49,203 nucleotides of DNA from Gemmatimonadota bacterium. GTDB taxonomy: Bacteria; Gemmatimonadota; Gemmatimonadetes; Gemmatimonadales; GWC2-71-9. The notes under the pieces were generated by a model, which saw only the letters and a list, made by a program, of their open reading frames with translations, was not told the origin of the DNA and did no database searches. How positions within the stretch are numbered: position 1 is the stretch's first letter; the number at the start of each line of letters is the position of its first letter. Of this stretch, positions 10,814 through 14,457 are shown piece by piece. Location: positions 1 through 49,203 of the forward strand of contig QHUU01000096.1 of assembly GCA_003222155.1 (NCBI GenBank), written 5' to 3'. Both the position numbers and the translations under genes were made by a program.

Positions 10814-10826
10814 CCGAGGAGCCCTG

Positions 10827-13800
10827 GTGACCGAGCTGCACTGGGACGTGCCGACCGCCGCGCGCCTGGCTGAGCTGGTCGCCGCACCACTGCCGCTCGG
10901 CCTCTCCGCCGGACCGCCGCGGCGAACCTTCCACCGCGACCTGTACTTCGACACGCCGGCCGGCGACCTGCGTCGCCGCGACGTCACCTGTCGCATGCGC
11001 TTCGACGTGGACGATCACCGCACGATCGCCCTCGACGTGGGCGCGGTGCGCTACGTCGCCCCGGCCCTCGAGATCGAGCCGCAGGAGGCGTTCCGTGGAG
11101 ACGCGGACCCGGCGCGCCGGCTGCGGGCGCTGGTCGACCCGGCACGACTGATGCTCGTCTGCGAGCTCGAGGTCGAACGCGAGCTGCGCACCGCGCGTCT
11201 CCCCGTCGTGCCGCTGCGGCAGTTCGAGATCGCGTACGACACGGTGACGGTCCGCGGCACCGACCCGCCGCCCGTGTTCTGCGAGCTGGCGATTTCCCGC
11301 TGCGCGTGGTCGGTGCTCCCCCTGGGGCGTTTCGCAGGAGCGCTCGAGCGACGTTACGGCCTCGTTCGCGCACCGCGCGACCGGCTCGAACGCGCGCGGA
11401 CGGCTCGTGCCGCGCTCGGTACGGCAGACGGCGCGGCGCCCGGGGCAAGGCAGATCGCCGTGCTGGCGGTCGTGCACGGGCGACTGGCATTGTGGCGGAG
11501 TGGCGCTGGACTCGAGCTGCCGCTCGAGCCGGGTGGCGGCGAGGAGGCGTGTCGCCGTGCGATGCGCCGCCTGTTCGGGAGCGTCGAAGGCGAGACCCGT
11601 CTGATCGGCGTGGTGCGCGCGGGGGACCGGCGTCCCGCGGTCGAGGTGTGGCTGGTGCGGCGGCTGCGGCGCAACCTCACCGCGGCGCCGCCCGGCGGGC
11701 TGCAATGGTTCACGCCCGCGGACGTCGTCGCCCGAGTGGGCTCGCCCGTGTTGCGCGATCCGACGACGCTCTCGGCGCTGGCCGTCGCCGCCCGCTCGGA
11801 GCTCGTGCCGGAGTGGTCCGCGGCGCCCCTCGATTCGGTTCCACCGGCGGGCCCCACGGGCGGGACGACCGACGAGACCAGCCGGGTCACGCTGAGCGAG
11901 CTGCGGGTGCCGGCGCTGCCGCCCAGGGCCCTCGACCCCGCGCGGCAGGCGCCCGACCAGTTCGTCAACGCGCTGCTTTCCTCCCTGGAGTTCAACGTCC
12001 GCGTGCTCGAGCTGGCCGAGGATCCCCGCGTCCCGCTGCTGGCACGGCTGCGCTTCCTCGCGATCTTCAGCACGAACCTCGATCAGTTCTTCATGGTCGA
12101 CGTCGGCTCGCTGCACCATCAGGTGGCGGCCGGCGTCGTAGAGCGCTCGCCCGACGGCCTCACCCCAGCCGAGCAGCTCGACGCCATCGCGATCCGCCTG
12201 CATCCGCTCATCGGGCGGCAGTATCGCTGCTTTCGGGCGCTGGTGCAGGGCCCGCTCGCCGCGCAGGGCATTCGCATCCGCGACTGGACCGAGCTCGATC
12301 CGGGCGAGCGCGCGGGGCTGGCACGCCGCTTCGCGGACGACGTGGCGCCGCTGCTGACGCCCAAGGCGCTCACCCGCGCCCCCGGCCACGCCTTTCCGCA
12401 CCTCGCGGACCGCCGAGTGAGCCTGGCAGTCATGCTGCGGGACGGGCCGGACGGGCCACCGCACTTCGCCACAGTCGAGCTGCCGCCCTCCCTGCCCCGG
12501 TTCCTGGCCGCGGGCGGCGACGGTGGGGGGGTGGTCGCGCTCGAGACGGTCGTACGCGCCCATCTCGGGACGCTGTTCCCCGGTCGCGAGATCGTGGAGG
12601 CGCACGCCTTCCGCGTGACGCGCAGCGGGGACATTCAGCTGGACGAGCTCGGAGCGGCGAGCTTCGTGCAGGCGGTCGCCGAGGAGGTACGGCTGCGGCC
12701 GTGGGGTCCGGTGGTGCGCCTCGAGGTCGACCGCGCCATGCCGCCGGGGCTGCGCGAGCTGCTGCAGCGCGAGCTGCGGTTCGAAGAGAGCGAGCTCGCG
12801 AGCGCGCTCGGTCCGTCGGACGTGTACGCGGCGGACGGGCCGGTGCACCTCGGTGCGCTCGCGGAGCTCGCCACCGGTCACTCCCGCCCGGAGCTGGATT
12901 ATCCTCCGCTCGCCGCCCGTGATCCCTTCCCGGCCGGGCGCACCGTGTTCGCCGCGCTCGACTCGGGAGACGTCCTGGTGCACCACCCCCACGACGGTTT
13001 TGCCACCAGCTTCGAGCGCTTCATCGCCGAGGCGGCGGAGGATCCGGCGGTGGCCGCGATCAAGCTCACGCTGTATCGGCCCGGCGGGCCGTCGCCGGTG
13101 GGGGAGGCGCTGCGGCGCGCCGCCGCCCGCGGCAAGGACGTATCCGTGTTCGTCGAGCTCAAGGCGCGGTTCGACGAGGAGCTGAACATCGGCTGGGCAC
13201 AAAGCCTCGAGGCGGCGGGGATCCACGTGATGACCGGCGTCGCGACGCTCAAGACCCACGCGAAGATCGCCCTCGTGATACGGCGGACGGACGGCCGCAC
13301 GCGGCGCTATGCGCACGTAGGAAGCGGCAATTACAACCCCGACACCGCCAGGCTGTACACCGATCTGGGGTTGTTCACCGCGGACGAAGCGATCACCGCG
13401 GATCTGCACGCGCTCTTCAACGAGCTCACCGGCTCCTCGCGGGCGCCGCGGGCGACGTTCCGGCGGCTGCTCGTCGCACCGACCAACATGCTCGACCGCT
13501 TCCTGGCCCTCATCGCGAGGGAGGCGGAGCACGCGCGCGCCGGCCGCGGCGGGCGCATCCGCGCCAAGCTCAACGGCCTCGCCGACTGCAGCGTGATCGG
13601 CGCGCTGTATCGCGCGTCCCAGGCCGGCGTGCACGTGCGTCTCGTGGTGCGGGGAGTGTGCATGCTGCGCCCGGGCGTGCCGGGGCTATCCGAGCGGATC
13701 AAGGTGGTGAGCGTGCTGGGTCGCTTCCTCGAGCACGCCCGCATCTACTACTTCGAAAACGGAGGAGCCCCGGAGTACTACATCGGCTCGGCCGACTGGC

Positions 13801-13994
13801 GGCCCCGCAACCTGCGGCGACGCATCGAGGCCGTCACGCCCGTGGACGACCCCGCCGCGCGCGAGCGACTGGACGCCATCCTCGAGGGCGAGCTCGCGGA
13901 CCCCGGTGCCTGGAGCCTCGCTTCCGACGGCTCGTACGCCCGGGGTGTGCGCGTCACGGATCCCCTGCGTACCGCATCTCATTCGTCGGCGTGA
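10827..13994 (+). CDS. ppk1: CYTH-like domain - middle domain - polyphosphate kinase (PPK1) fusion
   Basis: A 1055-residue protein, about 370 residues longer at the N-terminus than ordinary PPK1. Residues 1-195 look like a CYTH/triphosphate-tunnel domain: FHRDLYFDTPAGDLRRR (35-51), CRMRF (55-59), ELEVERELR (113-121), FEIAYDTV (133-140) and FCELAISR (151-158), although the N-terminal ExExK signature is not intact. Residues 205-325 resemble a Nudix fold without a proper Nudix box. PPK1 proper begins near 377. It keeps KLTLYRPG, VELKARFDEELNIGW, the catalytic His811 (LKTHAKIALV), the second active-site His970 (LEHARIYYFENGG) and YYIGSADW, so polyphosphate synthesis from ATP should be possible. 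Two N-terminal PPK motifs are altered (NALLSSLEFN, LDQFFMVDV). It follows the CotH-like gene directly. Confidence 0.88.
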   Translation: MTELHWDVPTAARLAELVAAPLPLGLSAGPPRRTFHRDLYFDTPAGDLRRRDVTCRMRFDVDDHRTIALDVGAVRYVAPALEIEPQEAFRGDADPARRLRALVDPARLMLVCELEVERELRTARLPVVPLRQFEIAYDTVTVRGTDPPPVFCELAISRCAWSVLPLGRFAGALERRYGLVRAPRDRLERARTARAALGTADGAAPGARQIAVLAVVHGRLALWRSGAGLELPLEPGGGEEACRRAMRRLFGSVEGETRLIGVVRAGDRRPAVEVWLVRRLRRNLTAAPPGGLQWFTPADVVARVGSPVLRDPTTLSALAVAARSELVPEWSAAPLDSVPPAGPTGGTTDETSRVTLSELRVPALPPRALDPARQAPDQFVNALLSSLEFNVRVLELAEDPRVPLLARLRFLAIFSTNLDQFFMVDVGSLHHQVAAGVVERSPDGLTPAEQLDAIAIRLHPLIGRQYRCFRALVQGPLAAQGIRIRDWTELDPGERAGLARRFADDVAPLLTPKALTRAPGHAFPHLADRRVSLAVMLRDGPDGPPHFATVELPPSLPRFLAAGGDGGGVVALETVVRAHLGTLFPGREIVEAHAFRVTRSGDIQLDELGAASFVQAVAEEVRLRPWGPVVRLEVDRAMPPGLRELLQRELRFEESELASALGPSDVYAADGPVHLGALAELATGHSRPELDYPPLAARDPFPAGRTVFAALDSGDVLVHHPHDGFATSFERFIAEAAEDPAVAAIKLTLYRPGGPSPVGEALRRAAARGKDVSVFVELKARFDEELNIGWAQSLEAAGIHVMTGVATLKTHAKIALVIRRTDGRTRRYAHVGSGNYNPDTARLYTDLGLFTADEAITADLHALFNELTGSSRAPRATFRRLLVAPTNMLDRFLALIAREAEHARAGRGGRIRAKLNGLADCSVIGALYRASQAGVHVRLVVRGVCMLRPGVPGLSERIKVVSVLGRFLEHARIYYFENGGAPEYYIGSADWRPRNLRRRIEAVTPVDDPAARERLDAILEGELADPGAWSLASDGSYARGVRVTDPLRTASHSSA

Positions 13995-14457
13995 AGCCGA
14001 GCTTCTCGTACAGCGGGCGCCCGTCGGCCGACGCGTGCAGCACCAGGCTCTCGACGCCGTTCGCGCGGCACCAGCGGAGCAGTTCGCGCATCAGCGCTGC
14101 CGCCACGCCCCGGCGCCGCCACGCCCGCTCGGTGAACACGTTCAGGATCAGGCCCTGCGGTCCGCGCACCAGGGCCGCGCCGCCCGGCGCGGGGCGCGGC
14201 AACAGCTCGCGCAGCTGCACCCCCGCCCCAGCCACGATCTCACGGGACCGACCGCCCGAGACGGCGTCCGCCTCCGCCAGCCAGGCGACGTAGCGTCCGT
14301 CCGGGATCGCGGCGGCGAAGTACGCGCGCGCGGCTTCGACCAGCGTGTCGCGCAGGTCATCGCTCAGCTGGCCCATGTCCCGGAACATCTCGGCGCGATG
14401 GCGCGCGAGCACGCCAGCGTCCGCTGCCGTCGCCCGGCGGATCGAGAGCCCCGTCAC
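13954..14457 (-). CDS. GNAT-family N-acetyltransferase
   Basis: The 167-residue protein opens with LSIRRATAADAGVL, the usual first strand and helix of GNAT enzymes. It contains the acetyl-CoA pyrophosphate loop RRRGVAAALM (motif A; Q/RxxGxG/A) after LILNVFTERAW. It ends with LYEKLGFTPTNEMRY, where the Tyr is in the usual position of the general acid. The acceptor is unknown. It is the last gene of the histidine-kinase operon, joined to the preceding small gene by a GTGA overlap (GTG start). Its 3' end overlaps that of the convergent PPK fusion by 41 bp. Confidence 0.88.
   Translation of the reverse strand: MTGLSIRRATAADAGVLARHRAEMFRDMGQLSDDLRDTLVEAARAYFAAAIPDGRYVAWLAEADAVSGGRSREIVAGAGVQLRELLPRPAPGGAALVRGPQGLILNVFTERAWRRRGVAAALMRELLRWCRANGVESLVLHASADGRPLYEKLGFTPTNEMRYAGDP

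Follow-up and report, generated by a model that had tools for sequence, protein, structure and literature searches.

The domains that make up the protein studied here are known from separately described systems. YgiF, a CYTH-type inorganic triphosphatase (5A60), binds one metal ion through E160 and a second through E4, E6 and E162; R56 is catalytic, and the enzyme is impaired when E6, E160 or R56 is mutated (PMC4641920). CYTH domains fused to an HD hydrolase, an exopolyphosphatase, a kinase or CHAD have been listed, and PPK1 is not among these partners (PMC8233210). A group consisting of CotH, a polyphosphate polymerase (VTC) and the membrane protein DUF4956 has been described beside Gram-positive Pel operons (PMC7112168). 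In the locus described here the component domains are likewise known ones, and for their combination with PPK1 no description was found: the search of the open literature returned no CYTH-PPK1, Nudix-PPK1 or DUF4956-PPK1 protein.

The window, the whole stretch of 49,203 nucleotides that was analysed, is contig C92 of a Gemmatimonadota metagenome-assembled genome (MAG) of 3.4 Mb that is about 95% complete and has its nearest public relatives among soil Gemmatimonadetes MAGs. The phylum, one of soil bacteria, has received little study. It carries an open reading frame for a CYTH – Nudix-like – PPK1 fusion protein (Table 1). Judged by its sequence, this reading frame is a real gene, since the protein has full-length homologs in sister species (92, 89, 76 and 73% identity) and its GTG start follows a GAGGAG sequence at a distance of 5 nt. 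A chance reading frame or a frame artefact is ruled out by the full-length homologs in many genomes. A scan for sigma-70 promoters gave no candidate. A gene for a GNAT acetyltransferase (13954-14457), encoded on the minus strand, shares 41 bases with the 3′ end of the fusion gene, and a GNAT gene also follows the fused PPK1 gene in two sister species (L036, L038).

Table 1. Coordinates of the fusion gene, its parts and the related features. Positions without a locus prefix refer to the window.
Feature	Coordinates	Strand	Remarks
Predicted secreted kinase-like protein, 358 aa	9737..10813	+	N-terminal signal-like stretch ending ASA/SQ; invariant GNxD...HN...PYDFDxSG
Shine-Dalgarno-like GAGGAG	10816..10821	+	5 nt before the GTG start of the fusion gene
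CYTH – Nudix-like – PPK1 fusion gene	10827..13994	+	1055 aa plus stop
CYTH (triphosphate tunnel) domain	10827..11420	+	aa 1-198; catalytic glutamates degraded, R56/R58 (YgiF numbering) kept
Nudix-fold domain without Nudix box	11439..11801	+	aa 205-325; Foldseek, profile searches
Probably flexible linker, low confidence	11802..11951	+	aa 326-375; pLDDT <50 at 331-364
PPK1 catalytic body (PP_kinase_N, middle, C1, C2)	11961..13946	+	aa 379-1040; Pfam, TIGR03705, alignment
His811, catalytic histidine of LKTHAK	13257..13259	+	alignment to solved PPK1s
His970, second conserved histidine of FLEHAR	13734..13736	+	alignment to solved PPK1s
DUF4956-PPK1 fusion, G032	L049:7127-9943		
DUF4956-PPK1 fusion, G014	L042:9926-12721		
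DUF4956-PPK1 fusion, G015	L043:9957-12725		

The C-terminal part of the protein is a canonical PPK1 body with an intact active site, and ATP-dependent synthesis of polyphosphate is predicted for it. All four Pfam PPK domains are matched within aa 379-1039, the TIGR03705 model scores 687.8 bits, and the body aligns end to end with solved PPK1s, both histidines and KARFDE included. The motifs lie where the earlier note on this DNA had put them, with KARFDE at residue 779 and TLYR at residue 748 in addition to the two histidines. The four domains, the catalytic histidines, KARFDE and the length of the body are shared with the E. coli PPK (1XDO/1XDP; TIGR03705). The fusion protein differs from this enzyme in its 375-residue CYTH-Nudix head, in belonging to a paralog clade of its own and in being encoded in its own operon without PPX, SixA and CHAD. 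The ordinary PPK1, in the genomes that also hold one, sits with PPX, SixA and CHAD genes. The genome of the window has a single PPK1, the fused one, which is the only PPK found in it; PPK2, PPX/GppA, CHAD and VTC (PF09359) were not detected in this MAG, which at about 95% completeness does not prove the absence of a gene.

A CYTH pattern in the extra N-terminal residues had been noticed from the sequence, and it is confirmed by profile and fold comparisons. The Pfam CYTH model (PF01928) scores 24.5 bits over aa 25-143, above its cut-off of 23.2, CYTH is matched in 18 of 20 homologs (E <= 1), and a profile of 20 homologs finds YgiF (5a60) in the PDB with an E-value of 1.5e-4. The structure model of the head, built from homologs (mean pLDDT 78.6), consists of an eight-stranded tunnel and a subsequent second alpha/beta domain. 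In the Foldseek search with this model, ranks 1-35 are all occupied by CYTH/TTM structures; Mediator-head tunnel folds appear after rank 35, followed by Nudix structures. The CYTH domain (aa 1-198) has the triphosphate-tunnel fold. The earlier note had also pointed to VTC polymerases as members of the tunnel superfamily. Aligned with hhalign, the tunnel domain matches bona fide YgiF-type CYTH with a probability of 94.8 (E 5.3e-8, 162 columns) and bacterial VTC with a probability of 2%. The tunnel domain is accordingly YgiF-like and its link to VTC is one of fold only; descent from VTC, for which hhalign gives no support, was rejected. With YgiF the domain shares the tunnel fold, the Y/FDT...LRRRG...RxR block, the C-terminal helices and the habit of occurring in multidomain proteins (CYTH-CHAD in the YgiF type). 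It differs from YgiF in that the metal-binding glutamates are degraded and the partner is PPK1 rather than CHAD.

The active-site residues of the CYTH domain were scored, in YgiF numbering, on an alignment of 52 homologs, in which the rows of E160, E162, R56 and R58 are firm. E160 is Glu in 9/52 homologs, and E162 is replaced by Arg in 32/52 and retained as Glu in 2/52. R56 and R58 are Arg in 44/52 and 50/52, respectively. K69 is not kept, and E153 of the fusion protein, which aligns with E158 of YgiF, is Glu in 43/52. E4 is Glu in 5/52, E6 is Glu in 25/52, and K8 is Arg or Lys in 44/52, these three rows being soft because the first CYTH strand could be aligned only to within about 2 residues. 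Not one of the 52 homologs keeps at least three of the four metal glutamates (E4, E6, E160, E162), which agrees with the loss of the ExExK signature stated in the earlier note, and at least two of the three basic residues (K8, R56, R58) are kept in 51/52. It is quite improbable that the domain has retained tripolyphosphatase activity, or works with other metal ligands, and trims or proof-reads the chain ends for PPK1. The clear CYTH fold, the conserved equivalents of R56 and R58, the conserved E153 and a Glu near E6 in about half of the homologs would fit such an activity; the rarity of E160, the change of E162 to Arg and the loss of K69 and E4 speak against it, as does the impairment of YgiF by mutation of E6 or E160 (PMC4641920). 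With the metal glutamates lost and the basic residues kept, polymer trimming, which the earlier note had considered, is not supported, and its suggestion of binding or regulation rather than catalysis describes the likelier role.

Identification of the second domain of the head was not possible with Pfam and NCBIfam, neither of which gave a match to this segment alone; its Nudix nature was revealed by fold and profile comparison. The Foldseek matches to Nudix structures are led by NUDT4/DIPP2 (E 1.8e-4, TM to target 0.60-0.64). A profile of homologs of aa 205-325 finds a genuine Nudix protein (PF00293, E 6.7e-20) in another Gemmatimonadota genome with an i-E of 2.6e-6, a value obtained on a small set, and matches ADP-ribose pyrophosphatases weakly (E 0.05). 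The Nudix box (Gx5Ex7REUxEExGU) is absent in all 50 homologs and present in the control Nudix protein, so that the Nudix-like fold without catalytic box proposed from the sequence is upheld. In common with NUDT4 (DIPP-type) and the bacterial ADP-ribose pyrophosphatases, the domain has the Nudix fold, the LP..G.GE..cR motif and a trailing D.kTlAAl block; the catalytic REuxEExGu, in contrast, is lost throughout. The segment has a conserved set of its own, namely GSGE, EVW and LRDP.TLAAL.

Ligand-sensing Nudix folds, such as NrtR, are known. The Nudix-like domain could likewise be a sensor of a nucleotide or of an ADP-ribose-type ligand that gates PPK1, the CYTH domain being mainly structural. 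This would be in line with ADP-ribose pyrophosphatases as the closest sequence relatives of the segment and with its conserved set, which implies a kept function. We regard it as unlikely, as three genomes of family f2 encode a CYTH-PPK1 protein without the Nudix domain, showing that the CYTH part can stand alone, and the tunnel arginines are conserved beyond the need of a scaffold. Both domains are best read as pseudoenzymes that have kept anion binding and lost metal catalysis. This reading follows from the loss of the metal glutamates and of the Nudix box and the persistence of the basic tunnel residues, interpreted by the established CYTH mechanism.

Whether the extension is ordinary and already characterised in PPK1 proteins, a point raised in the earlier note, has a divided answer. 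The CYTH-type extension (E <1e-30) was found in 52 of the 298 Gemmatimonadota genomes sampled, in families f1, f2, f4, f5 and f6, and is in this sense common in the phylum; a characterised example was not found in the literature searched. A scan of genomes of all species, with patterns derived from one sequence, returned two near-identical Gemmatimonadota only, and tblastn gave no occurrence of the fusion on plasmids. A tree computed on 55 PPK1 bodies separates the fused from the ordinary PPK1s by a branch with 100/99 support, and one contig-end fragment labelled as ordinary groups with the fused ones. By this tree, the fused PPK1 is a paralog clade separate from the ordinary PPK1. The CYTH-PPK1 proteins of the three f2 genomes are nested among the CYTH-Nudix-PPK1 proteins, which suggests that the Nudix domain was lost in them. 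In three genomes, G014, G015 and G032, the N-terminus of PPK1 is formed by DUF4956 (PF16316). These DUF4956-PPK1 fusions nest with strong support inside the CYTH-Nudix-PPK1 clade, which indicates that DUF4956 replaced the CYTH-Nudix head.

The gene upstream of the fused PPK1 gene is separated from it by 13 nt and belongs to the same operon. Its product has no match in Pfam, CotH (PF08757) included. In an alignment, its GNxD, HN and PYDFDxSG motifs are invariant across 8 homologs, and an AF2 model (pLDDT 77) has its best Foldseek matches in HipT, PI4K and PI3K (E 5e-4), with a low TM of about 0.37. The invariant residues and the matches of the model suggest a kinase-like fold. Membership in the CotH family was also considered and found neither with Pfam nor in the PDB sequence search. 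In related loci the kinase-like gene is the same-strand neighbour of the fused PPK1 gene, or the latter adjoins a gene for an Omp85 protein (PF01103) with a related-looking N-terminal region (GDWDRHQDQWRW..PIPRDRD). Proteins of about 850 aa that combine this N-terminal kinase-like motif region with a C-terminal Omp85 barrel are encoded at L035:8181-10724 and, in similar form, in L052, L045 and L086. Genes for a metallophosphoesterase and an SdiA-regulated-type propeller protein are also present in some of the loci with a fused PPK1.

DUF4956 is usually the third element of these loci. At most of those with enough flanking sequence, the kinase-like gene is adjacent to the fused PPK1 gene, and DUF4956 is encoded on the same strand no more than a few kb away. 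No DUF4956 gene is present in the window; the copy of this genome is located on contig C89 (L119:6970-8046). This contig is syntenic with a locus of genome G002 in which a second CYTH-Nudix-PPK1 gene forms a full operon with an Omp85-kinase-like gene, a metallophosphoesterase gene and DUF4956. C89 lacks the first three of these genes and has kept DUF4956, flanked as in G002. DUF4956 is present in 48 of the 52 fusion genomes and in 103 of the 246 others; as it is common in the phylum (151/298), this co-occurrence is confounded by ancestry, and the argument rests on adjacency and fusion. VTC was found in 6 of the 298 genomes, each copy abutting DUF4956, and in 14 control genomes DUF4956 and VTC were detected in the same three. 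Both families were detected in Corynebacterium glutamicum. Most of the related loci resemble the CotH/VTC/DUF4956 group (PMC7112168) in uniting DUF4956, a putative kinase-like gene and a polyphosphate-type polymerase. They differ from it in the polymerase, which is not VTC but a PPK1 headed by a YgiF-type CYTH domain, and in the kinase-like protein, which Pfam does not assign to CotH and which is Omp85-borne in another variant. Pairs of DUF4956 and the same secreted kinase-like gene without a neighbouring PPK1 occur in order-level relatives (L120, L121, L122, L128, L134, L137). In genome G029 an ordinary but divergent PPK1 gene belongs to a run of genes on one strand that also includes those for SixA, DUF4956, propeller and CHAD proteins (L126:5791-11988). 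The earlier note, sound in its description of the domain architecture, had missed the operon, the conservation across the phylum, the swaps of architecture and the DUF4956/kinase-like context.

The replacement of the CYTH-Nudix head by DUF4956 in a single polypeptide would also be accounted for if the N-terminal domains bound no ligand and served solely for docking to, or assembly with, DUF4956 and the kinase-like protein, which would make them replaceable by direct fusion. Such a role is improbable in our estimation, as it gives no reason for the conservation of basic residues within the tunnel. We favour, with modest confidence, the view that the fused protein is an envelope-linked PPK1 paralog with a regulatory or polymer-binding head formed by a pseudo-tunnel and a pseudo-Nudix domain, and that it takes the place of VTC in the DUF4956/kinase module. 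On this account, the paralog would make polyphosphate from ATP at its own intact PPK1 site. The tunnel with its kept arginines would most likely grip the phosphate chain or an oligophosphate, and the Nudix fold would most likely bind a phosphorylated ligand. Together the two domains may set the chain length, the processivity or the on/off state of the enzyme. The protein is proposed to work with the membrane protein DUF4956 and the secreted kinase-like protein, taking the place that belongs to the VTC polymerase in other DUF4956 modules, and this pathway would be located at the envelope.

The control of chain length and the regulation of PPK1 are poorly understood, and the family described here provides a naturally occurring PPK1 whose two-domain head, presumably regulatory, can be removed. 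The DUF4956-PPK1 fusions can be regarded as Rosetta-stone evidence for a role of DUF4956, a membrane family of unknown role seldom named in the literature searched, in polyphosphate metabolism. Three independent lines, namely adjacency, the replacement of VTC and direct fusion to PPK1, tie DUF4956 to this metabolism and make its function directly testable. A more speculative and rather doubtful extension is that DUF4956 is a general membrane partner of bacterial polyphosphate synthesis, for which VTC, CYTH-PPK1 and DUF4956-PPK1 would be interchangeable polymerases. These would then feed polyphosphate to DUF4956, or through it, in the direction of the periplasm, and the secreted kinase-like proteins there would use it or respond to it. 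If true, this would be a bacterial counterpart of the coupled synthesis and translocation by VTC.
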